DNA from: Actinomycetota bacterium
Lineage (GTDB): Bacteria > Actinomycetota > Acidimicrobiia > Acidimicrobiales > MedAcidi-G1
Direction: 5' to 3'
NCBI GenBank assembly: GCA_014381945.1
Contig: JACNKQ010000075.1
Location: 110,630-151,855 of the forward strand
Length of the DNA stretch: 41,226 nucleotides
The notes under the pieces: model-generated
Database searches by the model: none
Told to the model about the DNA's origin: nothing
The model's input: the letters and a program-made list of their open reading frames with translations, nothing else
Made by a program: the position numbers and the translations under genes
Part shown: in pieces, positions 13,537 through 40,154 of the stretch
Numbering within the stretch: position 1 is the first letter of the stretch
Layout: each line of letters starts with the position of its first letter

Positions 13537-15470
13537 ACCTCGCTTCGGTGCTCGTCGCCAATCGGGGCGAGATCGTCCGACGGGTGTTCCGCACCGCCCG
13601 GGACATGGGCCTGCGCTGCGTCGCCGTGTTCGTCGACGCCGACGCCGACGCCCCGTTCGTGGCCGAGGCGGACGACGCCGTCCGCCTGCCCGACGGCTAC
13701 CTCGACGGGGCGGCGATCATCGCCGCCGCCCTCGCCACCGGCGCCGACGCGATCCACCCGGGCTACGGCTTCCTCGCCGAGAACGCCGACTTCGTCGAGG
13801 CCGTCGAGGCTGCCGGACTCGTATGGGTCGGTCCTCCGGCCGATGTGGTCCGCTCCATGGGTGACAAGTTGGCGGCCAAGGCGGCGGCCGATGCCGCCGG
13901 GGTACCCACCCTCCCCTCCTCGGACGACCCGACCGACGCCGGGTCCGTCGGCTACCCACTCCTCGTGAAGGCGGTGGCCGGCGGTGGCGGAAAGGGCATG
14001 CACCTGGTCGAATCAGCCGCCGACCTCGACGAGGCGGTGGCCTCGGCCCAGCGGGAGGCCCTGGGGGCCTTCGGCGACAGTCGGGTCTTCCTCGAACGCT
14101 ACGTCGCACGCTCCCGCCACCTCGAGGTCCAGGTCCTCGGCGACGCCCACGGCGGGCTCATCCACCTCGGCGAACGCGAGTGCTCGATCCAGCGCCGCCA
14201 CCAGAAGGTCGTCGAGGAGTCGCCGTCGCCCTTCGCCGACGAAGCCCTCCGGTCCACCCTGGGGGAGGCAGCGCTCCGACTGGCCGAAGGCATCGGCTAC
14301 CGGTCGGCCGGCACCGTGGAGTTCCTCGTCGACGACGAGACCGGCGAGTTCTTCTTCCTCGAGACCAACACCCGACTCCAGGTGGAGCACCCCGTCACCG
14401 AGGAGGTCACGGGCATCGACCTCGTACGCGAACAGTTCCGGGTGGCCGCCGGCGAGCACCTGGACCGGTTGCAGGACGACGTGGTGTCCACGGGCCACGC
14501 AATCGAGGCCCGCCTCTACGCCGAGGACCCCGACCACGGCTTCCTGCCGGCCACCGGCACCCTCCACGCATTCGTACCCGCCAACGAGCCGGAGGTCCGC
14601 TGGGACAGCGGCGTCGAGCAGGGCTCCCGGGTCACGGTCGACTTCGACCCGATGCTCGCCAAGGTCGTAGCCCACGGATCCACCCGCGAGGAGGCCGCCC
14701 GTCGCCTCGCCCTAGCCCTCGAGCGCCTCCACCTCGGCGGTGTCACCACCAACCGCGACTTCCTCGTCGCCACGCTGCGCCACGAGGCGTTCCTCGCCGG
14801 CGACACGACTACCGACTTCATCGAACGCAACGCTCCCTCCGGTTCGGTACCCCACTCCCGGAACGAGGTCGGACGGGCAGCCGTCGTGGCCGCCCTCTGG
14901 CTGCTGGGGCGCAACCGGGCCGATGCCGGCGTCCTGGCATTCGCCCCCGCCGTCTGGCGCAACGCCCGACTCCCCGACGAGCGGGTCGTCCTCACGCACG
15001 GCGACGGTGAGGTCGAGGTCGGCTACCGGGCCGAACGAGGCGGCGGCTTCACCGTCAACGGCACCTCCTCCGCCCTGATCCACCGCTGGTCCGACGACGA
15101 CATCGACGCCGAGGTCGACGGCCGACGCTCGGTCAGCCGGGTCACCCGGGCCGATGGGCGGATCTGGGTACAGGTGACGTCCGGTACCGTCGGGTTCGGG
15201 ATCGCCCCCCGGTTCACCGTGCCCGGCACCGAGGAGGTCCACGGCGGACTCGTCGCCCCGATGCCCGGCGTCATCCTCGAACTTCGCGCCGGACCGGGCG
15301 ATCGCGTCGCCGCCGGTGAGACACTCGTGGTCATGGAGGCCATGAAGATGGAGCACCACATCAGCGCCCCGGAGGACGGCACGATCACCGAGGTGCTCGT
15401 GGCCGTCGGCCAGCAGGTCGAGAACGGCACCGCCCTGATGGTGCTCGAGCCTGACGAGGATTCATCGTGA
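13533..15470 (+). CDS. Acyl-CoA carboxylase alpha subunit (biotin carboxylase + BCCP)
   Basis: ATP-dependent carboxylation of its own biotin, feeding the beta subunit (645 aa). Residues 1-445 are biotin carboxylase: VANRGEIVRRV, the glycine-rich ATP loop GGGGKGMH, ERECSIQRRHQK and NTRLQVEHPVTE (preceded by ET where EM is usual). A linker and BT-like region follows, and the last 75 residues are a biotinyl domain with VMEAMKMEH, where the second Lys is the biotin site. The layout matches MccA/AtuF-type subunits. It is coupled to both neighbours by GTGA overlaps. Confidence 0.93.
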   Translation: MNLASVLVANRGEIVRRVFRTARDMGLRCVAVFVDADADAPFVAEADDAVRLPDGYLDGAAIIAAALATGADAIHPGYGFLAENADFVEAVEAAGLVWVGPPADVVRSMGDKLAAKAAADAAGVPTLPSSDDPTDAGSVGYPLLVKAVAGGGGKGMHLVESAADLDEAVASAQREALGAFGDSRVFLERYVARSRHLEVQVLGDAHGGLIHLGERECSIQRRHQKVVEESPSPFADEALRSTLGEAALRLAEGIGYRSAGTVEFLVDDETGEFFFLETNTRLQVEHPVTEEVTGIDLVREQFRVAAGEHLDRLQDDVVSTGHAIEARLYAEDPDHGFLPATGTLHAFVPANEPEVRWDSGVEQGSRVTVDFDPMLAKVVAHGSTREEAARRLALALERLHLGGVTTNRDFLVATLRHEAFLAGDTTTDFIERNAPSGSVPHSRNEVGRAAVVAALWLLGRNRADAGVLAFAPAVWRNARLPDERVVLTHGDGEVEVGYRAERGGGFTVNGTSSALIHRWSDDDIDAEVDGRRSVSRVTRADGRIWVQVTSGTVGFGIAPRFTVPGTEEVHGGLVAPMPGVILELRAGPGDRVAAGETLVVMEAMKMEHHISAPEDGTITEVLVAVGQQVENGTALMVLEPDEDSS

Positions 15471-17230
15471 GCGACCCGATCCGCATCGCCAACTGCTCAG
15501 GCTTCTACGGCGACCGGCTCTCGGCCGCCGCCGAGATGGTCGAAGGCGGCCCGATCGACGTGCTCACCGGCGACTGGCTGGCCGAACTCACGATGCTGAT
15601 CCTCGCCCGCACGCAGGCCAAGCGCCCCGGCGGAGGCTATGCCCGCAGCTTCGTACGACAGATGGAGCAGGTGATGGGCACCTGCCTCGACCGGGGCATC
15701 CGGGTCGTGGCCAACGCCGGCGGTCTCGACCCGGACGGATGCGCCGAGGGTGTCGCCGAGGTCGCCGACAGGCTGGGCCTCTCCCCCACCATCGCCTACG
15801 TCGACGGCGACAACCTGCTCCCGCGCCTCGACGACCTCCTCGCCGCCGGCGTGGACCTCCCCGACCTCGTCACCGGCGAACCCCTGACCGAACCCGGTCG
15901 CTTCATCAGCGCCAACGCCTACTTCGGCTGCTGGGGCATCGTCGAAGCGCTCGACCGTGGCGCCGACATCGTGGTCACCGGTCGCACCACCGACGCCGCC
16001 GTGGTCTGCGGCCCGGCCGCCTGGCACCACGGCTGGGCACGCGACGACTGGGACGCCCTCGCCGGCGCTGTCGTCGCCGGGCACGTCATCGAGTGCGGCA
16101 CGCAGGCCACCGGGGGCAACTACTCGTTCTTCACCGAGATTCCCGGACTCGAACGGGCCGGGTTCCCCTGGGCCGACATCGCCGCCGACGGATCCTCGGT
16201 GATCGGCAAGCACGACGGCACCGGCGGTGCCGTCACCGTCGGCACCGTGACCTCGCAACTGCTCTACGAGATCGGCGCCCCCGGCTACCTCGGCCCCGAC
16301 GTGACAGCCCGTTTCGACACCATCCGCCTCGAGCAGGAGGCGCCCGACCGGGTCCAGATCAGCGACACGAGGGGCGAGCCGCCGCCACCCACCCTCAAGG
16401 TCTCGATGAACCGCCTCGGCGGATACCGGAGCGACCTCGCCATCGGCCTGACCGGCCTCGACGTCGACGCCAAGGCCGAGTTGGTCGAGGCCGCCTTCTG
16501 GCGGGCCTGTCCCCTCGCCCCCGAGGACTTCGACGAGGTGTCCAGTCGGACCGTGTACACGGGCAAGGACGACCCCGCCTCGAACGAGGAGGCCGTCGCC
16601 CAGTGGTGCCTCACAGTCAAGGACGCCGACGAGCAGAAGGTGGGCCGTGGCGTGTCCAACGCCATGAACGAGTTGGCGCTGGCCTCGATCCCGGGGTTCT
16701 TCGCCGCCCGCAGCGGCGGTGGCGCCCGGGCGTTCGGCGTCCACCGCGCCGGACTGGTCCCCGCCGGACTCGTGCCCCAGCACGTCGTGGTCCTGAGAGG
16801 AGACCGCACCGTCGTCGACTCCGCGGCCCCCGAGGGCGACGTTTCCGTCGAGCCCGTGCCGGCACCACCGTCCGAGGTGCCGGCAGGCCCGACAGTCCCC
16901 GCTCCGCTCGGCCGAGTGGTCGGCACCCGCTCCGGTGACAAGGGGGGTGACGCCAACCTCGGCGTGTTCGCCCGCACCCCCGAGGCCTGGGCGTGGCTGG
17001 ACGGCTTCCTCACCACCGACCGGCTCCGGCACCTCCTCCCCGAGGCCGCCGACCTCGAGATCGAACGCCACCTGCTGCCCAACCTGCTGTCGCTCAACTT
17101 CGTGATCCGCAGGCTCCTCGGCGAGGGCGTTGCCGCCTCGACCCGCCAGGACGGCCAGGCCAAGAGCCTCGGCGAGTGGCTGCGGGCACGCGTCGTCGAC
17201 GTCCCCGAGTCGCTCCTGGAGTCCGCATGA
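15467..17230 (+). CDS. AtuA-family protein with fused C-terminal AtuA-like domain
   Basis: The product (587 aa) starts with the AtuA (DUF1446) domain: IANCSGFYGDRLSAA, DVLTGDWLAELTM, VANAGGLDP, the TGRTTDAAVV motif, and ATGGNYSFF. From about residue 480 a second domain begins (GRVVGTRSGDKGGDANLGVFAR), which is the small AtuA-like domain that is a separate protein in some bacteria. AtuA is required for acyclic terpene use in Pseudomonas, but its reaction is not known to me. Its place between carboxylase subunits and an enoyl-CoA hydratase fits that pathway type. GTG start overlaps the carboxylase stop. Confidence 0.9.
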   Translation: MSDPIRIANCSGFYGDRLSAAAEMVEGGPIDVLTGDWLAELTMLILARTQAKRPGGGYARSFVRQMEQVMGTCLDRGIRVVANAGGLDPDGCAEGVAEVADRLGLSPTIAYVDGDNLLPRLDDLLAAGVDLPDLVTGEPLTEPGRFISANAYFGCWGIVEALDRGADIVVTGRTTDAAVVCGPAAWHHGWARDDWDALAGAVVAGHVIECGTQATGGNYSFFTEIPGLERAGFPWADIAADGSSVIGKHDGTGGAVTVGTVTSQLLYEIGAPGYLGPDVTARFDTIRLEQEAPDRVQISDTRGEPPPPTLKVSMNRLGGYRSDLAIGLTGLDVDAKAELVEAAFWRACPLAPEDFDEVSSRTVYTGKDDPASNEEAVAQWCLTVKDADEQKVGRGVSNAMNELALASIPGFFAARSGGGARAFGVHRAGLVPAGLVPQHVVVLRGDRTVVDSAAPEGDVSVEPVPAPPSEVPAGPTVPAPLGRVVGTRSGDKGGDANLGVFARTPEAWAWLDGFLTTDRLRHLLPEAADLEIERHLLPNLLSLNFVIRRLLGEGVAASTRQDGQAKSLGEWLRARVVDVPESLLESA

Positions 17231-25920: not shown

Positions 25921-28900
25921 CTAGAAAGATGGCGCTGTTGGTGTCCCATTGGCAGTCGAGGAGGGATCTCCGCCGTCCTCATCAACGGCGTTGATCGCCG
26001 TGACCCGGAAGACATGCACATAACCGCCCGAATAGAGGTTGCGTACCGTCACCGAGGTGTCGGTCATGGAGTCCCTTGTGAGATCAACTGGGCCTACCGT
26101 CCACCACTCATAATCACCCTCGAACTGCCACTCGATGATGTAGTCGGTGAGCGAGGAGCCGCCGTCATCGCTCGGCGCAGTCCAGGACAAGTCGATTGAA
26201 TAGTCGACGCCGGAGGTAGCCGCTGCCGTCAGGTTCGTCGGCGCCCCCGGCACCGTTGTCGGAATGGCTAGCTGGACGGTGCTGGACGCCGTTCCGGTCC
26301 CGGCAGCGTTCACGGCAGAAACCCTGAACGTGTAGCTTGTGCCCTTCCCAAGCCCGGTCACGATGGCGGTGAGAGTGGCCGAGGTTCCGTCGGCGAAGGT
26401 GGTCCACGTCGATCCGCTGTCGTTGGAGTATTCGACGACGTAGTCGGTGATGGCCGAACCACCGGTTTCGATCGGGGCAAACCAGGACAGCGACACATCG
26501 GGGGCGGCAGGAGCCGTCGCTGCGAGTCCAGTAGGTGCCCCAGGAACGGTCATCGGCGTGACCGTCACCACATTCGACACAGAAGACGTACCGACCGCGT
26601 TGGTAGACGAAACGCGACCCGAGTAGGTGGTTCCGTTCGTTAAGTATGTCGTTGAATACGTACCCGTCGACCCGGAGAACTCCAAGGTGAACGCATCATC
26701 ATCGACCACCCAGGTGCTGCCACCATCTGTCGAATACTCGATGGTGTACCCGGTGATCGCAGACCCGCCGTTGTTAGGAACGGTGAACGTCGCAGTCATC
26801 GACTGGTCCCCGACCGCAGTCACCGTGGCATCGGTGATCGCCGCCGGAACACCCGCCGGCGTGAACGTCACCACATTCGACACAGAAGACGTACCGACCG
26901 CGTTGGTGGCCGAAACGCGACCCGAATAGGTGGTTCCGTTCGTTACGTAAATCGTGGAATACGTACCCGTCGACCCGGAGAACGTCAACGTGAACGCATC
27001 ATCATCGACCGTCCAGGTGCTGCCACCATCTGTCGAATACTCGATGGTGTACCCGGTGATCGCAGACCCGCCGTTGTTAGGAACGGTGAACGTCGCAGTC
27101 ATCGACTGGTCCCCGACCGCAGTCACCGTGGCATCGGTGATCGCCGCCGGAACGGTGGGCAAGGTGGAAGTCTGTGACGTCGGCCCGGCGCCTGCGACGT
27201 TGACGGCAGAAACTCGAAGTTCATAGGGGCCGCCGGTGATCAGGGTTTCACTCGAGAAGGTAAAGCTGGCCTGTGCGGAGACGGCGTCTTCAAAGGTCGT
27301 CCAGGTGGTCCCTGCGTCGGTGGAGTATTCGACCACGTAGTCGATAATCGTCGAGCCACCGGTGTCGAGGGGTGCTGTCCAGGTTACGAGTGCTTCCATG
27401 GTTCCTGGGACGGCGTTCAAACTGGTGGGGGCGCCAGGAACAGCAATTGGGCTGGCGGTCGTCGTGGTCTCGGGCGGCTCAGTCGTCGTGGTCTCGGGCG
27501 GCTCAGTCGTCGTGGTCTCGGGCGGCTCAGTCGTCGTGGTCTCGGGCGGCTCAGTCGTCGTGGTCTCGGGCGGCTCAGTCGTCGTGGTCTCGGGCGGCTC
27601 AGTCGTCGTCGACTCGGGCGGCTCAGTCGTCGTCGACTCGGGCGGCTCAGTCGTCGTCGACTCGGGCGGCTCAGTCGTCGTCGACTCGGGCGGCTCAGTC
27701 GTCGTCGACTCGGGCGGCTCAGTCGTCGTCGACTCGGGCGGCTCAGTCGTCGAAGGTGCAGGAGTAGCGATCACGAGTACTTCTTCGCGCACTTCCTCGT
27801 CGAAAGTCTCAGGTTCGCTGACCTCTGCCTCTGCCTCGATCACGACGGTTTCGACGACTTCACCTTGCTCGTCGACCACCTCGACGATCGCCTCTTCGAC
27901 GACCACTTCGATGTCGACACGATCCTCACCGGCCTCGATGACGACCTCTTCGACAACCGCTCCTGCGTCGTCGACGAAGTCAACGACGGTTTCGACCTCG
28001 GTCACCTGAACCTCGGTGTCGAGCCGATCGGACGACTCGACAAAGATTCGTTCTGATTCGGTGGCGACGCTCACAACCGCGTCCGCTTCTTTGGACACGG
28101 CGACCTCAAGTTCGCCTTCGCTGGCGCGGATCTGGACTTCGACCTGCTTCTTGGCTGCGACAGTGATCGTGCCAACGGGCGTCTGTGCAGTCACCGTCGC
28201 CTCCCCAGCCGCCTCGAACTTGATGTCGTCGCTGTCTTCGGCAGCGACCTCGATCAACGCCGTCGTCGACCCGTCGAGACCGGCACGGATTACCGCCACG
28301 ACCGCGTCCTCGCCGGGAACCACCTCAGCGCCCTCGGTGATCGTGTCGCCCGCTGTCAACGACCAGTTCCGATCGGTGGACGTGACCGCCAGCAGTACAC
28401 GGTTCCCGGTACCGGCGCCGGCAAAGGGTTCCTGGTGCGGTGCCTCACGAGACGACAGGGGTTGGAGGTCCATCTTCTTGTTGCCACCGGTCCATGCCTC
28501 CGGGTCGGTGGCTGGATCCTTGCCGGAATACGAGAACCTCCAGATGTTCGAGTTGGTATCGACCTCGATGTAGCGATCCTGAGATGGCCAGTTCGGGTCG
28601 TAGACGTGGATCACCGCACGGCCTTCCTCGAGGCGGTCGACGGCATACGGCAACACGCTGTGGCCTCCACCCTTGGTGTAGACGCCAAGCGTGTACTGCT
28701 CATGGCCAGTGTCCGCCAACGCCGCTTCGAGTTCGGCAACGATTGTGGCGACACTCTCGGCTCGCCAATCATCCGTCGCGTCGATGACCTCTTGGAGGTA
28801 TTGGGTCGCGAACAGTCGACTCACCTGTCTGGCCAGGTCCGGGCTGAACGGAAGCTGGCCGCTGCTTGGCTCAGCTCCGACGAGGAAACGATCCAGACTC

Positions 28901-29304
28901 GTGACCGTCATGCCCTCGCAGGAACCAAACGACATCGAATGCGCGACCATCGCGATCCATTCGGCTGCAGCAGGCGTCGGCGTACACCCACCGGAAGCCT
29001 CCACACACACTGCGTCGTCGCCGAACAGCGCGATCGCATCGGCTACGGAGAACGCCGTCTCGGCGTCTGCCCGATAGTTCCGAAACTTCCAACTGTCGGC
29101 GTCAACGCTGAAGCCAAGCGACGCCTCCGCCTGCTCAGGAACCGCTACCTCAACCGCTGCGGCCAACTCCGGGGCAGAACCCCCACCACAGGAAGCGCCC
29201 AGCAGCGCTACAACCAACAGGATGCTGCCGTGTGGCAACCGGGTCCGGGGCGACCGACCGTTCGAACGACGCATCAGTCGCCCCGACTCCATGATTACGG
29301 TCAT
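25921..29304 (-). CDS. Giant lipoprotein: papain-like domain, PPE(S/T)T stalk, five FN3 domains
   Basis: The product is 1127 aa from ATG 29302-29304 (GAGAGG 10 nt upstream; other starts at 29337 and 29274 are possible). A hydrophobic stretch ends in LLGASC (Cys39), a probable lipid anchor. Residues 60-300 look like a papain-like fold: Cys129 in SFGSCEGM, His215 in GGHSVLPYAV, and Asp236/Asn238 in VYDPNWP. Next come an Ig-like or FecR-like stretch, a Val/Glu-rich acidic region (about 410-510), and a 96-residue stalk of 12 TTEPPE(S/T)T units (about 520-616). Five fibronectin type III domains end the protein; the second and third are near-identical. I infer a surface protein holding a possible protease on a stalk. 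It lies 39 bp downstream of the delta-60 lipoprotein gene. Confidence 0.85.
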   Translation of the reverse strand: MTVIMESGRLMRRSNGRSPRTRLPHGSILLVVALLGASCGGGSAPELAAAVEVAVPEQAEASLGFSVDADSWKFRNYRADAETAFSVADAIALFGDDAVCVEASGGCTPTPAAAEWIAMVAHSMSFGSCEGMTVTSLDRFLVGAEPSSGQLPFSPDLARQVSRLFATQYLQEVIDATDDWRAESVATIVAELEAALADTGHEQYTLGVYTKGGGHSVLPYAVDRLEEGRAVIHVYDPNWPSQDRYIEVDTNSNIWRFSYSGKDPATDPEAWTGGNKKMDLQPLSSREAPHQEPFAGAGTGNRVLLAVTSTDRNWSLTAGDTITEGAEVVPGEDAVVAVIRAGLDGSTTALIEVAAEDSDDIKFEAAGEATVTAQTPVGTITVAAKKQVEVQIRASEGELEVAVSKEADAVVSVATESERIFVESSDRLDTEVQVTEVETVVDFVDDAGAVVEEVVIEAGEDRVDIEVVVEEAIVEVVDEQGEVVETVVIEAEAEVSEPETFDEEVREEVLVIATPAPSTTEPPESTTTEPPESTTTEPPESTTTEPPESTTTEPPESTTTEPPESTTTEPPETTTTEPPETTTTEPPETTTTEPPETTTTEPPETTTTEPPETTTTASPIAVPGAPTSLNAVPGTMEALVTWTAPLDTGGSTIIDYVVEYSTDAGTTWTTFEDAVSAQASFTFSSETLITGGPYELRVSAVNVAGAGPTSQTSTLPTVPAAITDATVTAVGDQSMTATFTVPNNGGSAITGYTIEYSTDGGSTWTVDDDAFTLTFSGSTGTYSTIYVTNGTTYSGRVSATNAVGTSSVSNVVTFTPAGVPAAITDATVTAVGDQSMTATFTVPNNGGSAITGYTIEYSTDGGSTWVVDDDAFTLEFSGSTGTYSTTYLTNGTTYSGRVSSTNAVGTSSVSNVVTVTPMTVPGAPTGLAATAPAAPDVSLSWFAPIETGGSAITDYVVEYSNDSGSTWTTFADGTSATLTAIVTGLGKGTSYTFRVSAVNAAGTGTASSTVQLAIPTTVPGAPTNLTAAATSGVDYSIDLSWTAPSDDGGSSLTDYIIEWQFEGDYEWWTVGPVDLTRDSMTDTSVTVRNLYSGGYVHVFRVTAINAVDEDGGDPSSTANGTPTAPSF
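26568..27153 (-). repeat. 303-bp tandem duplication of one FN3 domain
   Basis: Two near-identical copies (26568-26850 and 26871-27153) are offset by exactly 303 bp, 101 codons, in the FN3 lipoprotein gene. They differ at a handful of clustered positions, several of them synonymous or conservative. Other FN3 domains in the same gene are clearly diverged. Confidence 0.9.
27457..27744 (-). repeat. 24-bp tandem repeat, 12 units (PPEST/PPETT stalk)
   Basis: Twelve in-frame 24-bp units encode eight-residue TTEPPE(S/T)T repeats. Six consecutive units code PPETT (plus-strand GTGGTCTCG) and six code PPEST (GTCGACTCG). Each block is homogeneous, so the array grew by block duplication. Thr/Pro-rich stalks like this are typically extended and often glycosylated. 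Confidence 0.95.
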
Positions 29305-29343
29305 GCGGAATGTGCCTCTCGGGCACTCCTCACCCAATGTGCA

Positions 29344-32300
29344 CTATCCACGGGTCAGCCCCACGAAGAAGGTGAGGAGAAATGCACCGAACTTCTGCGC
29401 CTCAGCCGGTGTGACCTGATAGCCGGTCGCCACCCGGTCCAGAACCTCTTGTCCATCGTCGTCCCAGGTGAACACGATCGACTCCGAGCCGCTGACATCA
29501 GGCGGATCCGTGAGTGGACTGACACTGTCGTATCCACCTTCACCCAACTGCGTGAGGAAGTCGACGACGTACACGCCCGTGGCCTGGAACTCGGAGATTG
29601 TCAGTTCCATGAATTCTGCAGCTGACGCAACCGATGCGAAATCTTCCGCTGTGTAGCCGGTTGAGACCACACCGGAAGCAGCCTCCGCAGCAGCAGCAGC
29701 CTCCGCAGCAGCAGCAGCAGCCTCCGCAGCAGCAGCAGCAGCCTCCGCAGTAGCCTCGGCCAGAGCCTGTTCGGCGGCAGCCTGGGCCGCCTCAGCATCA
29801 GCAACAGCCTGCGCATCAGCAGCAGCTTGCGCATCAGCAGCAGCCTGCAGAGCAGTTTGCGCATCAGCAGCAGCTTGCGCATCAGCCTCAGCCTGTCTGG
29901 TGATTATCTCAGCATCCAGAACAGCTTGCGCAGCAGCAGCAGCCTGCGCATCAGCCGCAGCCTGCAGATCAGCAGCAGCTTGCTCATCAGCAGCTTGCTG
30001 TTCGTCATCAATGATCCCGACGGGAATCGCCGCAGCACCGGCTAGGCCGGCATAGACCGCAAACGAGTCCAAGGTGGGGATCACATAGACCAGTTGTGCC
30101 TCGCCCCCACCTAGGTCGCCGTCATCCACGCCCGTGACGGTGACGGTCTGTTCGCTCAATTCGGTGCCCGGCTCAAAGACCAACTGTTCCGGTGTGACTG
30201 TCAACTCAGCGTCATCTGAAGTCGAGACATCAAGGGTCACCGAACTCAAGATCGACGAGTTGAGACGAACCGTGAACGAATCGGTTCCGCCAGCTTCCTG
30301 GACTCCCGTCGAGTCAGCAGACTCGACCACCACGATCTGGGCCATCGCACAACCGTTCGATGCAGGATCGAACCATTCGGAGGATCCAATCAGGTTTCCG
30401 CCGGACGGATCGGTCTCGGTGGACGAGCGTCGGTCGAAGCCGTGGATACGGAACTGGCCAGTCCAAGGAGTTGCCTGGACAGCCCCGTGTGTGTGGGCAG
30501 TGCGTGCGTTGTCCGCCAAGAAGCTGACCTCGGCCAGACCAGCACCTGTTTCCAACCGCCAAGCAAACTCGCCGTAGGGAAGGTTGGTGTCGATGTTCCA
30601 ATAGGTCAGGTCGGCAGTCTCGGGGGTATCACCGCACGCCGGGTTTGACACGAATGTCGCGTCCTCAGTGGAGTCGAGACCCCTTTCCAACCGGACGAGA
30701 CCAGTACTAATACTGTCGCTCGGCAGCCTGACCGCTACGAGCACATTGCCCTGCGAGTCGAGGAACATCGGTCCCACATGCTCAGCCGTATTGTTGCCCA
30801 GTCCGCGAAGCTGACCATCAACCAGTGGGTATCGGTCTGAGGGAAACAACGGTTCGTAACCATAGAGAACATTCAAGTCATCGTTCGTTGTCAGAATTCC
30901 CAATTCTTGCGAATCCCGGATATAGAAGGAATCCATCCCATCAATGTTGCGAGACAACATATACATGAACTCAGAATCAGGAGATTCCAACTCTTCCTCG
31001 GAGACACCTAGTACTGAGGCCGTATTCACATTTCTAACCGAATCGATGAAGCCCAGTATTCTTGCCTCAAACGCTTCAATATCGCTAAGCGCCGGGGTGC
31101 TCTGTTCGCATTCCTCAAGTTCTATTTGAGCGGGCCGATACGCAATATCGTATACGCCTTGGGCTATCTCGTCGAGCAGCCTCATTTCGTGATGGTTATC
31201 AAAGGAGAGATTGGCCAGGTCCGGCACGTTCTCCAGAAGTGCATCAATTTCGCTTTGACGTTGCTCCTGTTCTTCTTCACTGCCAACCGCGAGTCTCGGC
31301 AATGCGTTCACGAGTTCTGCGAAGTCGAAATCAGAAGAGACTCCACCGCCAGCCTCACCCAGGTCCATACCAATATGTCGAATCACGCTTCCTGTGCGCT
31401 CGTTCATATCCATTGCGATAGCGCACTGCATCGGCAACGTGAAGACTTGCAACATTTCAGTTGTCACGTCTTCGGAACTGAAACCCCGCTCTCGTGTGAA
31501 GATGACAGCTGCATCATCTGCGGAATTCACGCTGACCGCTCTTGCTCGATACTGGACGCCCAGCGTTGACGACGGGTCCGCTCCGAGAGGAACGCCCTCA
31601 AAGACTGTCAGCACATGCGAACCATCTTGACCGAAGTCGGTATCAGGCCTCCCGGTCGCCAAATAGCGAGAAACGAAACCGACGTTATGTCCATCGTCAA
31701 AACCTTGGGCATATCCCGCTACCAGGATTCGTCCGGAAGAATCAACAGCGACATCTTCTATCGTATTCTCAGCACCCGGAACCGGCGAGTCGATTCGAGA
31801 CCCAGCGGGTTCGAAGGAGTTGTCGACCGAACCATCGCTACCATAGAGACGAATCTCAAGAGAACCCTCGTCCGTCGCCTTTGCCGCAACTAATCCACCG
31901 TTACTGTGCGGTCTTGTGTACCTGTCTCCCGGATGTCCTTCCAGGGTCACCCATCCGAGTTCCTCATCGATCGCGCCTGTCTGCGCATCGATACGCTTGA
32001 ACAACGTCTTATAAGTATTCGACTCGCCATCACAGGCCCAACTATCTGTAATAAAGAAATAGTATTCGCCGTCGGAGGAAGGATGTATAGGTCCATTGCA
32101 CCAGAACTCGGATGACAACACCGTTGCAATGCCATTGTCGCCAAACTCGTCTACTCGGTTTCCCTCGGAATCGAGCTTGAGCACCACAAAGTCATTGCCC
32201 TCGGCTATACGGCCCCCGACGAGGAGATGTCCTTCGAGGTCGACGACCGGCTTTTCGACGCTGACCCAACCTTGCTCGCCAACTTCTTCGGCAACATTTA

Positions 32301-32616
32301 TTCTCGCGATTTCGGTTGCCGTGCCATCGCTTGAGAGCCGCTCGACAGCCCAGAACCAGTCCCTTTGCCCCCAGTCGTAAACACTGTCGACAGAGAATCC
32401 CTGACCCTGCTCGTCAAAGACATAATCGTCTTTATCTTTGGGTTCTACGAACCCTCCGATGCCGTAGGTGGTGTCGATTCGGATCGGCGAATCATCTGGT
32501 TCGAAGAACGCATGCCGGTCGCCTGCACCGTCACTGCCGCATCCTGAGGCAACGACAGCGAACGCGACCAAAGTCGCGACTGCTAACAGCACAGTTCGAT
32601 TCAAACGCGGATTCAT
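29344..32616 (-). CDS. Giant lipoprotein with delta-60 propeller, Calx-beta and Ala-rich helix
   Basis: ATG 32614-32616 follows GAGAGG at about 6 nt. The product (1090 aa) has a signal peptide ending in VASGC (Cys26). Residues 40-760 hold a propeller-like region with delta-60-type repeats (LDSEGNRVDEFGDNG; RYLATGRPDTDFGQDG), interrupted by a helical segment. A Calx-beta-like domain (about 765-869) is followed by an Ala/Gln/Asp-rich helix (873-980) and a conserved-looking C-terminal domain with FTWDDDG. Roles are unknown; delta-60 and Calx-beta domains occur in large cell-surface proteins. The stretch 30900-32400 is much richer in A+T and in rare codons than the rest of the window. The FN3 lipoprotein lies just downstream on the same strand. 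Confidence 0.85.
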   Translation of the reverse strand: MNPRLNRTVLLAVATLVAFAVVASGCGSDGAGDRHAFFEPDDSPIRIDTTYGIGGFVEPKDKDDYVFDEQGQGFSVDSVYDWGQRDWFWAVERLSSDGTATEIARINVAEEVGEQGWVSVEKPVVDLEGHLLVGGRIAEGNDFVVLKLDSEGNRVDEFGDNGIATVLSSEFWCNGPIHPSSDGEYYFFITDSWACDGESNTYKTLFKRIDAQTGAIDEELGWVTLEGHPGDRYTRPHSNGGLVAAKATDEGSLEIRLYGSDGSVDNSFEPAGSRIDSPVPGAENTIEDVAVDSSGRILVAGYAQGFDDGHNVGFVSRYLATGRPDTDFGQDGSHVLTVFEGVPLGADPSSTLGVQYRARAVSVNSADDAAVIFTRERGFSSEDVTTEMLQVFTLPMQCAIAMDMNERTGSVIRHIGMDLGEAGGGVSSDFDFAELVNALPRLAVGSEEEQEQRQSEIDALLENVPDLANLSFDNHHEMRLLDEIAQGVYDIAYRPAQIELEECEQSTPALSDIEAFEARILGFIDSVRNVNTASVLGVSEEELESPDSEFMYMLSRNIDGMDSFYIRDSQELGILTTNDDLNVLYGYEPLFPSDRYPLVDGQLRGLGNNTAEHVGPMFLDSQGNVLVAVRLPSDSISTGLVRLERGLDSTEDATFVSNPACGDTPETADLTYWNIDTNLPYGEFAWRLETGAGLAEVSFLADNARTAHTHGAVQATPWTGQFRIHGFDRRSSTETDPSGGNLIGSSEWFDPASNGCAMAQIVVVESADSTGVQEAGGTDSFTVRLNSSILSSVTLDVSTSDDAELTVTPEQLVFEPGTELSEQTVTVTGVDDGDLGGGEAQLVYVIPTLDSFAVYAGLAGAAAIPVGIIDDEQQAADEQAAADLQAAADAQAAAAAQAVLDAEIITRQAEADAQAAADAQTALQAAADAQAAADAQAVADAEAAQAAAEQALAEATAEAAAAAAEAAAAAAEAAAAAEAASGVVSTGYTAEDFASVASAAEFMELTISEFQATGVYVVDFLTQLGEGGYDSVSPLTDPPDVSGSESIVFTWDDDGQEVLDRVATGYQVTPAEAQKFGAFLLTFFVGLTRG
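29676..29996 (-). repeat. GCA/CAG-rich low-complexity repeat coding Ala-rich helix
   Basis: Imperfect repeats of GCAGCAGCAGCCTCC and GCATCAGCAGCAGC type encode runs such as AEAAAAAAEAA and QAAADAQAAADAQ within the delta-60 lipoprotein. The register is in-frame throughout. Length variation between strains would be expected here. Confidence 0.85.
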
Positions 32617-33926: not shown

Positions 33927-34979
33927 ATGGGGCCAAACGACGGGAAGACCCAAGTGGAGTTCCACGCCGGAGTCACGGCGGAGGACCTCTGGCAGACCTC
34001 GCCGGATGCCCTGCTGGTAGTCGAAGCGGGCGGCGTCATCCGGGGCGCCAACCCCGCCGCCCACGCCCTGTTTCACTACGGGGCCGAAGAGCTCGTCGGG
34101 CGGTCGGTCGAGGACCTCGTCCCCGAGGCGGCCAGAGAACGCCACCACGTCCAGCGCAGGGAGTTCGAGAATGCACCCCACGCCCGGCCCATGGGTACAG
34201 GTCAGCGCCTCGAGGGCTGCACCCGGGACGGCGACGTCTTTCCGATCCACGTCAGCCTCGCCCCTGTCGGAAGCGGTTCGAAGCTGACGATCGCCGCCGT
34301 ACGCGACATGACAGCCTGGATGGACGCCGAACAGTCGCTGGCCACCATGCGCCGCCGCAGGGACCTGGCGGAGGATCACGAGCGCATCGCCAGGCAACTT
34401 CACGACACCGTCATCCAGGAACTGTTCGCAGCCGGAATGGCCCTTCAGGCGATCCAGGCCATGAGCGATTCTGAGCCGGCAGTGCGCATCGCTGGGATCG
34501 TCGAGGGTCTCGACGCCACCTCCAGGACGATCCGCTCGGTCATCTTCGACCTGAGTTCGCCCATCCACAGCGAACACGGCCTACGCAGCAGGGCCACCGG
34601 GCTCGTCGGCGAGTTGGCCGACCTGCTCGGCTTCGAGCCGCACTGTCAGTTCGCAGGCCCCCTGGACACGGCCGTTCCCGACTCCCTCGTCGAGGATGCC
34701 CTCGCCGTGCTGCGTGAGGCCCTCACCAACGTCGCCCGCCATGCCGGGGCGACTACCGTGGACATCCGCGTCGAGGTGGCCGACGAACTGTCGGTCGAGG
34801 TGATCGACAACGGCAGCGGGCTCCCGGCCGGGAGCACCCGCCACAGCGGTCTCGCCAACCTGGCCACACGTGCGCTACAGCGGCAGGGACGTTTCAACGC
34901 CTACACGGCCCCGACCGGTGGCACGGCCCTCGAATGGATCGTTCCGGTCGTAGCCGACCCGGAACCGGAGGGCTCCTGA
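33927..34979 (+). CDS. Sensor histidine kinase, PAS-HisKA_3-HATPase (NarL/DevS type)
   Basis: The product (350 aa) is cytoplasmic: no membrane segment is visible. Residues 17-130 form one PAS domain (DALLVVEAGGVIRGANPAA; FPIHVSLAP). A HisKA_3 dimerisation helix follows with His159 in ERIARQLHDTVIQEL, then the ATPase with N-box REALTNVARHA, DNGSGLP and SGLANLATRA. It lacks the heme-binding GAF domains of mycobacterial DevS/DosT, so its signal is open: a PAS ligand, redox state or light. The neighbouring response regulator, converging with a 3-bp gap between stop codons, is the obvious partner. Confidence 0.9.
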   Translation: MGPNDGKTQVEFHAGVTAEDLWQTSPDALLVVEAGGVIRGANPAAHALFHYGAEELVGRSVEDLVPEAARERHHVQRREFENAPHARPMGTGQRLEGCTRDGDVFPIHVSLAPVGSGSKLTIAAVRDMTAWMDAEQSLATMRRRRDLAEDHERIARQLHDTVIQELFAAGMALQAIQAMSDSEPAVRIAGIVEGLDATSRTIRSVIFDLSSPIHSEHGLRSRATGLVGELADLLGFEPHCQFAGPLDTAVPDSLVEDALAVLREALTNVARHAGATTVDIRVEVADELSVEVIDNGSGLPAGSTRHSGLANLATRALQRQGRFNAYTAPTGGTALEWIVPVVADPEPEGS

Positions 34980-34982
34980 CGT

Positions 34983-35627
34983 TCAGCCGTTTCGCCTCTC
35001 GTCGAGCCGGGCGGCAAACGCGGCAGCCTCGGTCCGTCGCTGCATTCCCAGCCTGCGCAACAGGTTCGTGACGTAGTTCTTGATGGTCTTCTCGGCCAGG
35101 AACATCTGCTCGGCGATCTCACGGTTGGAGAGACCCTCCCCTATCAGGTCGAATACCCGTCGCTCCTGTTCCGGGAGCTCCCCGACCGTGGCCTCGCCGG
35201 ACTCGCGCAGCCGCCGGAGGGCAAGTCGTACCGTCGCCCGGTCGAGGAGCTGTCGTCCGGATGCCACGTGGCGGATCGCCTCAAGCAACTCACCTCCGAC
35301 CGCCTTTTTCAGAACATAGCCGGCAGCGCCGGCCAGGCTTGCCTCGACCAGCGCCTGGTCGTCCTCAAACGAGGTGAGCATCAGGCACCGCACATCCGGG
35401 TAGGCGGATCGGATGTCGCGGCAGACCTCGACCCCGGACCCCTCTCCGAGTCGGACATCGAGCACCGCCACGTCGGGTGACACCTCTTCGACTACCTCAA
35501 GGGTCCGCTGGGCGGTCGCAGCCTGACCGACGACCATCAGGTCGGGTTCGGCGCCGATGACCGCCACCAGGCCCTGCCGGACGATCTCGTGGTCGTCGAG
35601 AATGAACACCCGGATGCTGTCAGCCAT
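34983..35627 (-). CDS. DosR/DevR-like response regulator (NarL family)
   Basis: The product (214 aa) has a receiver domain with acidic pair D11-D12, phospho-acceptor Asp57 in VAVLDVRL, Thr/Ser in MLTSF and Lys in YVLKKAV. A LuxR-type helix-turn-helix fills residues 150-210: LSNREIAEQMFLAEKTIKNYV. From memory it closely resembles mycobacterial DosR, including LDVRL, the LTS-F/Y motif, and the recognition helix with the K..KN residues that contact the GGGAC half-sites. The start is ATG 35625-35627, six bases after TAGACC. It is downstream of, and on the same strand as, the AioA-like operon. I infer that it binds the palindromes at 39088 and 39117. Confidence 0.92.
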   Translation of the reverse strand: MADSIRVFILDDHEIVRQGLVAVIGAEPDLMVVGQAATAQRTLEVVEEVSPDVAVLDVRLGEGSGVEVCRDIRSAYPDVRCLMLTSFEDDQALVEASLAGAAGYVLKKAVGGELLEAIRHVASGRQLLDRATVRLALRRLRESGEATVGELPEQERRVFDLIGEGLSNREIAEQMFLAEKTIKNYVTNLLRRLGMQRRTEAAAFAARLDERRNG

Positions 35628-35664: not shown

Positions 35665-35691
35665 GGTGAACACGGGTTCCAGGGGTTCACC
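35665..35691. other. Inverted repeat between the AioA-like operon and the regulator
   Basis: GGTGAAC at 35665-35671 pairs with GTTCACC at 35685-35691, with a 13-nt loop. It overlaps the stop codon of the 92-aa membrane protein and lies 26 bp before the regulator's -10 box. No U-run follows on either strand, so it could be a weak terminator or an attenuating hairpin. Confidence 0.4.
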
Positions 35692-35965
35692 CACCACGGC
35701 GTTCCCTGCGTGCCTCGTGGATGCCGTTCCCTGCGACCCCACCGACGAGGGCTGCCATCCAGAATGCGACCAGCACACCGACCGCTGCCGAGGACTCCCA
35801 GTCGTGTCCCGGGGCGAGGAGTCCGTACACCAGGCCGATCCCGACAGCCACGACCACGAAGCCGGCGAGTGCCGAGATCACCACCGTCCGGACCAGAGCG
35901 GACTCATCTTCGTCAAGGAACCTCGATTCGCTTCGGCTACTGGTCATGGTCTGTTGCATGGTCAT
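35687..35965 (-). CDS. Small two-helix membrane protein downstream of AioA-like gene
   Basis: The product (92 aa) has a hydrophilic, acidic N-terminus of about 25 residues, then two hydrophobic helices (VVISALAGFVVVAVGIGLVYGLL; VGVLVAFWMAALVGGVAGN) and a basic end (HEARRERRGG). I do not recognise the family. ATG 35963-35965 has GGAGGT about 10 nt upstream and overlaps the AioA-like reading frame by 29 bp; a later ATG at 35947 is possible. The overlap shows it is co-transcribed with the oxidoreductase and suggests a membrane or assembly role for that enzyme, which is inference. Confidence 0.7.
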   Translation of the reverse strand: MTMQQTMTSSRSESRFLDEDESALVRTVVISALAGFVVVAVGIGLVYGLLAPGHDWESSAAVGVLVAFWMAALVGGVAGNGIHEARRERRGG

Positions 35966-38456
35966 GGTCTGTCACACCTCCCGGTGCTCGGTTTCGACTG
36001 GCGAACGACATCCCCGCAACGGCTCCGGATACGCCCAGGCGCCGTAGACGCCCCCGCCCCAACTTGAACGGATAGCGAAGGCTCAACGGCTGGAGGCTCG
36101 TATCGGCTGGGGTCACGTTGTTGGCCGCCGAGCCGGGAAACAGGAAATAGGTGTAGGTGACGCCCCGAGGCACGATGTCGGTCGGATACACGACCGCCGT
36201 GAACCCTCCGGGACCTGTGCCACCGATCTGGTCGAGCACGTCATCGCACTCGACAGAGACGAGGTCGCCAGCCTCGAGTCCCCAGTCCAGCGCATCAGCC
36301 GGGTTCACCTCCAACGGGTTCATCGGCCAGCGCTCGGCCGCAAGGGGACGGCGGCTGAAGTCGGACAGGTTGTTCCAGAGGGCATTGACCCGTCCATTGA
36401 GAACCCAGACCTCTCCCTTGTCCGTACGTGGGGACAGAACCTCGTTTCGGTCCCGTACACGACTCCAGTCGGGCATCACGAAGTTCGCCTTTCCGGACCC
36501 GCTCTTGAAGCGAAGGTCCTCGTGGAGCCGCACGGTTTCGATGAGCTCACCGCCCTCGATCCGGAGTGGTGCCTGCAGACCTGTCGTGCCCAGGTCGCCC
36601 AGGAAGTCATGGGCCCGACGCCCCTGCGCCTGCGCCAACTCGACAAGAGCCGAGTAGTCCTTGCGGCTGCCGCTGGATCGCTTCGCCGATTCCTCGAACA
36701 CGGCGTTGCTGTCCGCCCAGTCGAACCCGTCGAAGCCCATCCGTTGACCGACCTCGGCAAAAATCTGCCAGTCGGGTCGAGACTCACCGGGGGCGTCCAT
36801 GAAGCCCTGATAGAGCCGCAGGCGACGTTCGGCGTTCGCCCGGGTGAAGTCCTCCTCACCCCAGGTGGCCGCCGGGAGGACGATGTCAGCGAACGCGGTG
36901 CTCTCGTTGGCGTAGATCTCCTGATGTACGAGCACCATGCCGCCGGCGTCCATACGGGCCGTCAACTGCGCCAGAGCTGTCGCCGGGTCCGTCGAGGTGA
37001 CCTGAGGACCCATGTGCGTCAACTCGTGGACGCGCCGTCGCAGGTTGCCGGTACCGGCCATGGCCGAGATCCAGTTGGTTCCGACCACCCACCGGAAGCG
37101 CGTATTGCCCTCCACCAACCAGCGCTCGGTGTCCATCTCCACCGGGTGCCCGTCGACTGAGTGCGGCGACTTGTCAAGGGGATAGGAAGCCGCCTTCTGC
37201 CCACCCCTCTGGTGCCCACCCATGCGGGACGTCGCCCGTCCCTCACGGCCGGATGCGCCGAGGACTATCCCCAGGTTCGCTATGGCAGCGGTGTTTTCGT
37301 AGTTGTGGGTCCAGTAGACGCCCTTTTCGAACAGCACCGATGTGAGCGGCTGCGGTCCCGCCCCTCCGCTGAGCAGTTCGGCTGCCTGCCGGATCTTCGA
37401 GGCCGGCACCCCGGACACCTTCTCGGCGCCCTCGGGCGTGAAGTCGGCATCGCTGCGCAGGTACCCGAGGAGCTCATCTCGCGTCCTGCCGTATTCGACC
37501 CGGCGCCACTTGGACTCGGCGTCGAGTTCGGCCCGTGTCGCCAGAGACTCCACGAACTCCCGGTCCTCCCATCCGTTTTCCAATATGAGCAGGACCAGGG
37601 CGTTGTAGAGGCAGGTGTCGGTTCCGGGACGCAACTGGAGGTGGAGACCTCCCCCCCGTTCGGCATAGTCCGCAGTGAAGGTGCGGCGCGGGTCGACATA
37701 GACGATCTTGGCGCCTCCAGCCACCTGCCAGTCCGTGAACCGAACCGACTTGGTCTCATAGGGGTCGGATCCGGCGATGAACAGGACCTCTGCGGCACGG
37801 TCGTCGACGAACGCTGCGGAGAAGGCATCGATCCCCGCATCGCTGAGACCCGGAACGTCGTCGCCCTCGGCCGGGGCATGGTGCGGCGAGTAGTTGGGGG
37901 TTCCGATGCTCGCCAGGGCCAGTTTCGTTGCGGCATAGGTGTTTTCGAGAAACTCGTACGAGTAGCACTTCATGCCCCAGGCGAGCTCGCCGTAGCGCTC
38001 GATGGTGGTGAGTGAGAGTCGGGCGACGAGATCCAGCGCTGTGTCCCATGGGATCGGCACCAGATTGCCGTTCACCCGGAGTTGCGGGGTCAACAGACGG
38101 TCTGCAGTCGGACCATCGACTCTGAAGAGCTTCTGTGCCAAAGCCCCACCGCGCACCGAGTGCGAACCGGCGACGTTGACGACATCCGCATCAGGGTCGG
38201 GCAGGACGACACAGTTCTGACGCTCGCCTCCGACTTCGACGACCGTATGCATGTTCTCCGAGATCCACCCACCTGCAAGTGGCCCGAGCGGGAGGTCGCG
38301 CCCCAGGGCGTTCTCGGCTGCGGTCATGCCTCCGCTGGTTCCGAGGGGCCACGTGTAGACCCGGTAACCGCAGGCAACCGGGCAGTACTCACAACAGGTG
38401 GTGTGCTCGACCGCTCCGACCGGAGGGATCGGGACAGTCGTCGTGGGGGTCGTCAT
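35937..38456 (-). CDS. aioA: AioA-family molybdopterin oxidoreductase (arsenite oxidase-like large subunit)
   Basis: Molybdenum enzyme of the DMSO reductase superfamily (839 aa). C22-x2-C25-x3-C29 followed by GYRVYTWP matches the N-terminal iron-sulfur motif of AioA; Ser100 in SHSVRGG stands where the fourth Cys would be, as in AioA's 3Fe-4S site. Further AioA-like blocks are ENALGRDLP, EKGVYWTHNYEN, SRMGGHQRGG and the C-terminal WPMNPLEVNPADA. By eye alignment to the Alcaligenes faecalis enzyme, arsenite-pocket residues H195, R419 and H423 correspond to H192, R411 and H415; E203 aligns with D200. No Tat signal is present, so it is probably exported with its Rieske partner, encoded 11 bp upstream. 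Arsenite, iodate (IdrA is in the same clade) or another oxyanion is possible. ATG has GAGAGG at 7 nt. Confidence 0.85.
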   Translation of the reverse strand: MTTPTTTVPIPPVGAVEHTTCCEYCPVACGYRVYTWPLGTSGGMTAAENALGRDLPLGPLAGGWISENMHTVVEVGGERQNCVVLPDPDADVVNVAGSHSVRGGALAQKLFRVDGPTADRLLTPQLRVNGNLVPIPWDTALDLVARLSLTTIERYGELAWGMKCYSYEFLENTYAATKLALASIGTPNYSPHHAPAEGDDVPGLSDAGIDAFSAAFVDDRAAEVLFIAGSDPYETKSVRFTDWQVAGGAKIVYVDPRRTFTADYAERGGGLHLQLRPGTDTCLYNALVLLILENGWEDREFVESLATRAELDAESKWRRVEYGRTRDELLGYLRSDADFTPEGAEKVSGVPASKIRQAAELLSGGAGPQPLTSVLFEKGVYWTHNYENTAAIANLGIVLGASGREGRATSRMGGHQRGGQKAASYPLDKSPHSVDGHPVEMDTERWLVEGNTRFRWVVGTNWISAMAGTGNLRRRVHELTHMGPQVTSTDPATALAQLTARMDAGGMVLVHQEIYANESTAFADIVLPAATWGEEDFTRANAERRLRLYQGFMDAPGESRPDWQIFAEVGQRMGFDGFDWADSNAVFEESAKRSSGSRKDYSALVELAQAQGRRAHDFLGDLGTTGLQAPLRIEGGELIETVRLHEDLRFKSGSGKANFVMPDWSRVRDRNEVLSPRTDKGEVWVLNGRVNALWNNLSDFSRRPLAAERWPMNPLEVNPADALDWGLEAGDLVSVECDDVLDQIGGTGPGGFTAVVYPTDIVPRGVTYTYFLFPGSAANNVTPADTSLQPLSLRYPFKLGRGRLRRLGVSGAVAGMSFASRNRAPGGVTDHDHATDHDQ

Positions 38457-38467
38457 GGTGGAACCTC

Positions 38468-39019
38468 TCAGGAGCTCTGGAGCAGTTCGACGCCGACGCC
38501 CTGAAGGTTGTCGGCGTACCCGTAGACATGGCGCCTTAGGCCGGTGGCGACGATCTCGTCGCCGTCGAGCCTCAGAAGGACCCTCGGCAACCTCTGTGTG
38601 GCCTGTCCGATCGCCGGCTGTCCGTCGTGGGCCAGATCGAACGACGTGAAATGGCAGGGACAGGGCCCGAGGACGCCCTCGTCACTTTGAAACTCGGTGA
38701 CCGGGCACCCCATATGGGTGCAAAGACTCGAAAAGGCCACGAGGTCTTCTTCGGGTCCGATGCCGTGCTCGGCCGGCATGCCCAGCCTTGCAAGGACGTT
38801 GGGTTGCCCGGGGGCGGGATACTCGAAGGTAGATGGTGTTCCGATCTCCAACTCCAGGTAGCTGCCGACGACGACCTCCGGGTATTGCAGGACAAGCGCA
38901 GTGACCTCACCGTCTTCGTCCCTGTCCCAGGACAGGCCGACCGGCAGGATCACACCTGCCGCAGCCGCAGCGCCACCTGCCGCACCCAGGAAAACGAACT
39001 CACGACGTGTCAGGGACAT
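38468..39019 (-). CDS. aioB: AioB-like Rieske iron-sulfur subunit with Tat signal
   Basis: The product (183 aa) starts with a twin-arginine signal (LTRREFVFLG then an Ala-rich hydrophobic core), so the folded complex is sent across the membrane. The 2Fe-2S site is CTHMGC and, after 15 residues, CPCH; the second Cys of each motif forms the usual disulfide. The tail QATQRLPRVLLRLDGDEIVATG and YGYADN is characteristic of AioB rather than of bc1 Rieske proteins. It receives electrons from the molybdenum subunit and passes them to a cytochrome or cupredoxin. ATG 39017-39019 follows GAAGG at 4 nt. First gene of the operon, divergent from the cupredoxin. Confidence 0.88.
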   Translation of the reverse strand: MSLTRREFVFLGAAGGAAAAAGVILPVGLSWDRDEDGEVTALVLQYPEVVVGSYLELEIGTPSTFEYPAPGQPNVLARLGMPAEHGIGPEEDLVAFSSLCTHMGCPVTEFQSDEGVLGPCPCHFTSFDLAHDGQPAIGQATQRLPRVLLRLDGDEIVATGLRRHVYGYADNLQGVGVELLQSS

Positions 39020-39166: not shown

Positions 39167-39613
39167 ATGGGTAACCAAAATCGCGCAGCACAACGTCGTC
39201 GGGCCCGACATGGCAGCAGCCCGTTTGACTGGATGTTCGCCGCCGGAACCGGGGTGGTCGCGTTCGGCACGGTTCTGGTGGTGGGTCTGGCGATCCTCGT
39301 GTTCCTCAAAGCCGCTGGAACGGACGGTTCGAACGAACCCGGCCCCTTGACCGAGGGTGCGATCGTCGCCACCGAGTTCCGCTTCACGCCGGCGAGGGTC
39401 GAGTCCGGGACCGAGGTCGAGCTGGTCCTGCGCAACGAGGGTGCCGTCTACCACGACCTGGTCATCTCAGGCGTCGATGGCGTGCACCTCAAGGTCCTCC
39501 CCGGCGAGGAGGACCTTGTCGAGGTCACTCTCGAACCGGGCCGCTACACGTTCTACTGCACGATCCCGGGGCATCGGGACTCAGGAATGTCCGGCGAACT
39601 GGTGGTCGGGTGA
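39167..39613 (+). CDS. Membrane-anchored cupredoxin (type I copper protein)
   Basis: The product (148 aa) has a basic N-terminus and one hydrophobic helix at about residues 25-48 (GVVAFGTVLVVGLAILVFL), which anchors it with the copper domain outside. The plastocyanin-like domain supplies the four type I ligands: His in VYHDLVI, then Cys, His and Met in FYCTIPGHRDSGM. Divergent and apparently co-regulated with the AioB/AioA-like genes, it is a good candidate electron carrier between that complex and a terminal oxidase. Azurin or cytochrome c has this role for arsenite oxidases. Confidence 0.88.
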   Translation: MGNQNRAAQRRRARHGSSPFDWMFAAGTGVVAFGTVLVVGLAILVFLKAAGTDGSNEPGPLTEGAIVATEFRFTPARVESGTEVELVLRNEGAVYHDLVISGVDGVHLKVLPGEEDLVEVTLEPGRYTFYCTIPGHRDSGMSGELVVG

Positions 39614-39683: not shown

Positions 39684-40154
39684 ATGAGACTGCGACGACG
39701 CCCTACGGACATCGAGCCACCTGAGTTCTCCACCGTGCACAGGCCGCGCGTGCTCGTCGAGGAACAGGACGGCGCCATCCGGTCCTCGTATGTGAACCTG
39801 CTCCGCGATGCCGGGTTCGAGGCGGTCGGCTGCGGGGGACCGGAGGACCAGGGGAGCGCCCGGTGCCCGCTGGTGATGGGCCAGGGATGCGACGCTGCCG
39901 AACGGGCCGACGTGATCTTCTTCTCGTTCCGCCTGGCAGACGAACGCAACCGGGACATCCTCAAGGCACTGAAGCGGCTGAACCCGAAGACACCGATCGT
40001 GGTCGAGTTGGCGAAGCCCCAGTCCTTCCGCTACCAGGATGTCCTGCGTGGCGTCCACCTCGCCTACGCACCGGTCACCGGCCATTCGCTCACCAAGGCG
40101 ATCCTCGACGCCTGGGAGGCGCCGAACCCGATTCTCGAGTCGCTACGCAAGTGA
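39684..40154 (+). CDS. Receiver-like protein without phospho-acceptor, with Cys motif
   Basis: The product (156 aa) folds by pattern as a CheY-like domain: RVLVEEQD strand with acidic residues, a central hydrophobic strand ADVIFFSFRL where the phospho-Asp should stand but is replaced (Phe/Ser), TPIVVEL, and a final helix. The conserved Lys is also missing. Between the first two strands lies C-x11-C-x7-C (GCGGP, RCPL, QGCD), which could bind a metal or be redox-active. I believe similar Cys-Pro proteins occur in other actinobacteria. The start is uncertain: ATG 39684 or GTG 39735. It is on the same strand as the cupredoxin, 70 bp downstream, with a possible terminator between. Confidence 0.7.
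   Translation: MRLRRRPTDIEPPEFSTVHRPRVLVEEQDGAIRSSYVNLLRDAGFEAVGCGGPEDQGSARCPLVMGQGCDAAERADVIFFSFRLADERNRDILKALKRLNPKTPIVVELAKPQSFRYQDVLRGVHLAYAPVTGHSLTKAILDAWEAPNPILESLRK

Follow-up and report, generated by a model that had tools for sequence, protein, structure and literature searches.

Introduction

The closest described systems are the arsenite oxidase AioAB, as in Alcaligenes faecalis and Pseudorhizobium banfieldiae NT-26, and the iodate reductase IdrAB encoded by idrABP1P2 loci, as in Pseudomonas sp. SCT and Denitromonas IR-12. A 2023 structural study of the NT-26 and Alcaligenes Aio enzymes with As and Sb oxyanions defined eight second-sphere residues in NT-26 AioA (Asp169, His199, Arg201, Glu207, Lys413, Arg447, His451 and Glu453), and alanine mutants of two funnel acids in NT-26 lose 30 and 65% of activity (PMC10448176). 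On the iodate side, P1P2 accompanied IdrA in every neighbourhood of its clade in PMC8692401, and published models hold that IdrP1/P2 remove H2O2 or another oxidant made by IdrAB (PMC10989891, PMC8692401). Reyes-Umana et al. (2021) also described a peroxidase-free "unknown clade" between AioA and IdrA that comprises Halorubrum spp., credited with arsenite oxidation, together with the Dehalococcoidia bacterium GCA_002730485.1 (PMC8692401).

Here we analyse a 41,226-nucleotide stretch of DNA (the window) from a genome of the class Acidimicrobiia, in which a sequence-only reading had pointed out an AioA-like enzyme with a Glu-to-Asp change in the substrate pocket. We conclude, with a probability of roughly 0.78, that the locus encodes a two-subunit molybdenum oxidoreductase of an uncharacterised Acidimicrobiia/Chloroflexota clade within the Aio/Idr family, lying on the iodate-reductase side. 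The assignment is drawn from sequence comparison, and it turns the Asp from an exception into the rule of its clade.

Results

The catalytic subunit is encoded on the reverse strand by an open reading frame at exactly 35937..38456 (839 residues), directly preceded by the gene for a Rieske 2Fe-2S small subunit (38468..39019, reverse strand). Pfam matches (Molybdopterin and Rieske_3, the 3Fe-4S domain), TIGR02693, the tree and a fold match to AioA place the large subunit among the Aio/Idr-family molybdenum bis-pyranopterin oxidoreductases, on the IdrA side. The small subunit was recognised by TIGR02694, the Rieske Pfam model and its CTHMGC...GPCPCH motif with an AioB-type disulfide Cys pair, and it bears a twin-arginine signal (MSLTRREFVFLG). 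Upstream, on the opposite strand to the Rieske gene, lies a divergent cupredoxin gene (39167..39613, forward strand; Cupredoxin_1/Copper-bind) whose product is anchored in the membrane by one transmembrane helix, has the complete type-1 copper motif (CTIPGHRDSGM) and is a probable electron carrier. Directly 3' of the catalytic gene, and overlapping its end, a 92-residue membrane protein is encoded (35687..35965, reverse strand) that has zero Pfam or NCBIfam matches and a similar-sized counterpart in L012 and L013 only. In these two closest relatives the enzyme genes are likewise followed by the small membrane protein, a NarL/LuxR-type response regulator (34983..35627, reverse strand, in the window) and a PAS-HisKA_3 sensor kinase (33927..34979, forward strand), the latter two assigned by domain matches and by this synteny.

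Several further genes of the window were recorded. A receiver-like protein without Pfam match (39750-40154) adjoins the cupredoxin gene, and L012 and L013 have a similar gene in the corresponding position. An acyl-CoA carboxylase-like cluster at 11875-17230 includes genes for a biotin carboxylase and for AtuA, a protein of acyclic terpene utilisation. Large surface or lipoprotein genes are found at 305-3157 and 25921-32571: one product has RCC1 repeats, another is a fibronectin type III protein, and the last, of ~1075 residues, has no clear family.

NCBIfam labels the gene products as the two subunits of arsenite oxidase, the large one by TIGR02693 (419.8 bits) and the small one by TIGR02694 (113.5 bits), and the large subunit passes the TIGR02693 cut-off of 359 bits. 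However, IdrA-type proteins (408-426 bits) and two other clade members (452 and 472 bits) score about alike, against 1499 bits for NT-26 AioA. We therefore rejected the match as proof of an arsenite oxidase, and because IdrA-type proteins pass the cut-off too, the "equivalog" label of the model is unusable for arsenite oxidation here.

The catalytic subunit is 39-47% identical to IdrA-type proteins and 28-31% identical to AioA. In a maximum-likelihood tree of 39 proteins, unrooted in effect, AioA was set off from all other proteins by a long branch (support 100/100), and the window protein fell among 17 proteins from Acidimicrobiia and Chloroflexota that form a clade (86/79) with a 14-member core (100/99). 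The neighbouring group consists of L028, L058 and the IdrA-type loci (95/92), the path from the clade to IdrA being short and that to AioA long. The clade falls outside the P1P2-associated group, as its sister or basal to it, the root not being fixed: when four other molybdopterin proteins from the window genome served as outgroup, the branches became very long and the outgroup did not stay on one side. Because this attempt failed, we claim distance and a shared pocket only, so that "IdrA side" should be read as a statement about distance and pocket residues and not as proven common descent apart from AioA. The enzyme is sparsely distributed: a sample of 395 genomes from the class gave 16 that carry one, and a single one of the 16 is IdrA-type.

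An AlphaFold2 model of an 838-residue construct, built from a 16-sequence alignment (mean pLDDT 77.6, pTM 0.82), had AioA structures as its best matches throughout (Z 35-36, rmsd 2.9-3.8 Å over 728-751 residues). The earlier description of the protein as a diverged AioA homologue is thus sound in terms of fold and identity. As pLDDT is below 50 in the pocket loops (construct residues 192-197 and 413-416, that is residues 193-198 and 414-417 of the open reading frame), the model gives no placement of the Asp200 side chain.

We then compared the pocket residue by residue with the relatives of solved structure that sequence comparison gives, the AioA of NT-26 (4aay/8ed4) and that of Alcaligenes (8cff, with arsenite bound), using HMMER and also MAFFT. 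In both alignments His192 (codon 37881..37883; this and all following codons on the reverse strand), Asp200 (37857..37859), Arg411 (37224..37226) and His415 (37212..37214) stand in the columns of AioA His195/199, Glu203/207, Arg419/447 and His423/451 (A. faecalis/NT-26 numbering), in agreement with the residues picked out by eye. The 3Fe-4S motif and its Ser are likewise conserved as had been noted (C22-x2-C25-x3-C29 and Ser100 of GSHSVRG), and a small residue, Ala196, occupies the place where a Mo ligand could sit, leaving Mo without a protein ligand; these features are common to AioA and IdrA. The supposition that Asp200 reflects a meaningless single substitution, a sequencing error or a misalignment has no point in its favour and can be given practically no credence: the His192-Asp200 stretch is gapless against the AioA references, no reasonable alignment puts a Glu there, and Asp is present in 23/23 distinct, independent clade loci covering the column, which rules out misalignment on the one hand and chance or a sequencing slip on the other.

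Asp in this column is not a feature of verified arsenite oxidases: Glu occurs in all 14 AioA collected (five plasmid-borne and nine from Pseudomonadota genomes). Over the eight published positions these 14 rows read DHREKRHE without exception, whereas the window protein reads S-H-A-D-K-R-H-R and differs at four of the eight. Lys378 (37323..37325; NT-26 Lys413) is conserved, and beyond the Glu203 column the differences are Ser166 (37959..37961) for Asp169, Ala194 (37875..37877) for Arg201, where IdrA-side relatives have Lys, Thr or Asn, and Arg417 (37206..37208) for Glu453. At three of the four differing positions the residue is that of IdrA-type proteins. The 22 distinct clade relatives read S-H-x-D-K-R-H-R, with Ala, Asn or Gly as x; the first column is absent from one partial sequence. 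Among IdrA-type proteins SHKDKRHR was found in most freshwater and deep-branching loci of idrABP1P2 organisation (L011, L029, L061, L094, L112 and L113, and L093, whose last residue is Cys), SHNDKRHR in L030, and SHTSKRHR in 56 mostly marine loci, where Ser replaces Asp. The same-column comparison with IdrA that had been proposed thus gives Asp in most freshwater and deep-branching loci and Ser in marine ones. With the IdrA-type signature derived in this analysis, S-H-K/T-D/S-K-R-H-R, which is not a published criterion, the window protein agrees at seven of eight positions. The exception is position 201, Ala in most of the clade and Lys or Thr in most IdrA.

On this evidence Asp appears to be the ordinary state on the iodate-reductase side, marine IdrA (Ser) excepted, because loci of idrABP1P2 organisation (L011, L029, L061 and L093) have it; and because it is conserved throughout its own clade, Asp200 gives no sign of a lone pocket mutation. 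We therefore no longer describe the protein as an AioA with a Glu-to-Asp change, nor can a single residue carry the story when half of the pocket positions differ. The suggestion that the Asp alters substrate choice survives in part: a choice altered relative to AioA is likely, on the basis of the whole pocket and the phylogeny rather than of Asp200.

The Rieske subunit and the electron carrier separate the clade from IdrA-type loci. As in IdrAB, a TAT-exported Rieske subunit is encoded directly upstream, and the catalytic subunit has no four-residue insert after the YSY motif. By contrast, an AioB-type Rieske Cys pair (CTHMGC...CPCH or a close variant), of the A. faecalis kind, was present at 17 of the 19 clade loci where a Rieske subunit was detected versus ~0/67 IdrB, nearly all of which have CTHxGG...CPLH or similar (GG...CPLH in place of GC...CPCH); AioB itself varies. 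The Rieske subunits of L125 and L126 seem to be without the AioB/bc1-type disulfide Cys pair. The effect of this pair on redox potential is disputed, and we rejected the disulfide as an indicator of redox potential in view of the conflicting evidence (PMC3758308).

At the upstream, opposite-strand position a cupredoxin is encoded in six loci (the window and five relatives), and an unrelated, membrane-anchored c-type cytochrome in the same place and orientation in five others; neither arrangement is that of idrABP1P2 loci. As two unrelated carriers have been swapped at one position, this gene probably encodes the electron-transfer partner of the enzyme. Loci at which the exchange can be seen include 39167-39613 of the window, L014:991-1422, L021:6695-7210, L015 and L120.

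IdrA-type loci have two cytochrome c peroxidase genes upstream, as seen on an Azonexus plasmid and by gene clustering; for Azonexus NCP973 as an iodate reducer we found no confirmation in the open literature. A family search detected no CCP_MauG protein in the window genome, which is 97.5% complete. Counting this genome, the protein was missing from 16 of 18 in the clade, while all seven IdrA-type genomes had it, mostly paired near idrBA; one of these seven (G010) shares its taxonomic family with the window. No P1/P2 di-haem cytochrome c peroxidase genes stand beside the enzyme in the window genome or in the clade neighbourhoods. Given the role of IdrP1/P2 in removing oxidant in the published models, the missing peroxidases argue against the plain name IdrA. 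A genuine respiratory iodate reductase that works without IdrP1/P2 nevertheless accounts for the pocket, which is that of idrABP1P2-organised loci, above all L011, L029, L061 and L093, and for the 39-47% identity. Set against the constant presence of P1P2 in published IdrA-clade neighbourhoods, the different Rieske subunit and electron carrier, Ala in place of Lys at position 201 and a tree position outside the P1P2 group, we judge this reading possible yet rather doubtful.

The same-family genome G010 encodes, at L011 (G010:C27:3534-8711), an IdrA-type enzyme preceded by two peroxidase genes, and by its gene content is a candidate iodate-respiring member of the lineage. Two Idr-type systems are thus found within one taxonomic family.

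The arsenic context characteristic of AioAB is missing around the clade enzyme. At none of the clade loci did we recognise an ars gene next to the enzyme gene, and family searches of the window genome found neither ACR3 nor ArsB. Arsenite exporters scored above cut-off in three of 19 genomes (18 of the clade and that of L028) versus eight of nine AioA genomes (Fisher p 0.0004), a contrast that is confounded by phylum and, on the AioA side, draws on ArsB searches in four of the nine genomes. A family search did reveal haem-copper oxidases in the window genome, which fit an aerobic host without distinguishing donor from acceptor.

Could the enzyme still be a true, diverged arsenite oxidase that has Asp for Glu and has conserved its function? 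Fold and cofactor motifs match AioA, the pocket His, Lys, Arg and His are kept, the Rieske Cys pair is AioB-type and the haem-copper oxidases would suit it. The adjacent cupredoxin also resembles azurin, which partners the Alcaligenes Aio enzyme. Yet half of the eight second-sphere residues are not those of AioA, among them both funnel acids whose alanine mutants impair the NT-26 enzyme; a long branch leads to every AioA, ars neighbours are missing and exporters are scarce as described, which makes this reading unlikely.

Discussion

We take the window protein to be a member of a clade in which Asp is the rule, rather than a pocket mutant of arsenite oxidase. The complex of a 3Fe-4S/Mo-bisPGD catalytic subunit and a Rieske subunit is marked for export by its TAT signal and would act extracytoplasmically, with a small oxyanion as the substrate of its Mo site. 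Asp200 may take the hydrogen-bonding or proton-relay place held by Glu in AioA, and electrons would travel between Mo, the 3Fe-4S cluster, the Rieske centre and the cupredoxin or cytochrome c.

The physiological reaction is the weakest part of this proposal. Because the pocket is IdrA-like we favour an iodate-like oxyanion acceptor, and reduction of iodate or a similar oxyanion is our leading guess, held tentatively at a little under even odds. We judge arsenite oxidation less likely than this, indeed improbable. Turnover of another substrate has close to an even chance. Under this last alternative the enzyme would act on the oxyanion of another halogen or metalloid, for instance, or take electrons from a donor that is not arsenite. 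In its favour, neither AioAB nor IdrABP1P2 combines such a pocket with this kind of Rieske subunit, this partner and a lack of peroxidases, but none of the neighbours adjoining the enzyme locus indicates a substrate. We rate this alternative as nearly balanced between true and false.

The clade considered here is probably the "unknown clade" of Reyes-Umana et al. or a neighbouring group, matched by description only. Both lie between AioA and IdrA, lack peroxidases and include Dehalococcoidia (L027 here). L027, another Dehalococcoidia, is 52% identical to the window protein, is also without peroxidases and was likened to GCA_002730485.1 by description, not sequence. The Acidimicrobiia members, the pocket signature and the partner swap belong to the present clade and are not described in the text of PMC8692401. 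Through this link the arsenite-oxidising Halorubrum reported there speak for an arsenite oxidase, and arsenite oxidation thus retains a small probability for the clade.

One may picture an Idr-type family in Acidimicrobiia and Chloroflexota that does without peroxidases, joins an IdrA-like pocket to an AioB-like Rieske subunit and exchanges cupredoxin for cytochrome c as partner. Such a family would have its own reaction or stand, in function, midway from iodate reduction to arsenite oxidation. We regard this as a speculative view, with the odds somewhat against it. The clade is moderately interesting and worth testing; the single substitution is not.

In the sample analysed, the eight-residue signature (DHREKRHE versus S-H-x-D/S-K-R-H-R) separates true AioA from the rest. 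The NCBI "arsenate reductase (azurin) large subunit" model also admits iodate reductases and the present clade, so that surveys by gene name would miscount both arsenite oxidation and iodate reduction, a likely annotation error that is corrected here. If characterised, the clade would bear on a question already raised in the literature: how one of the two processes, iodate reduction and arsenite oxidation, arose from the other.
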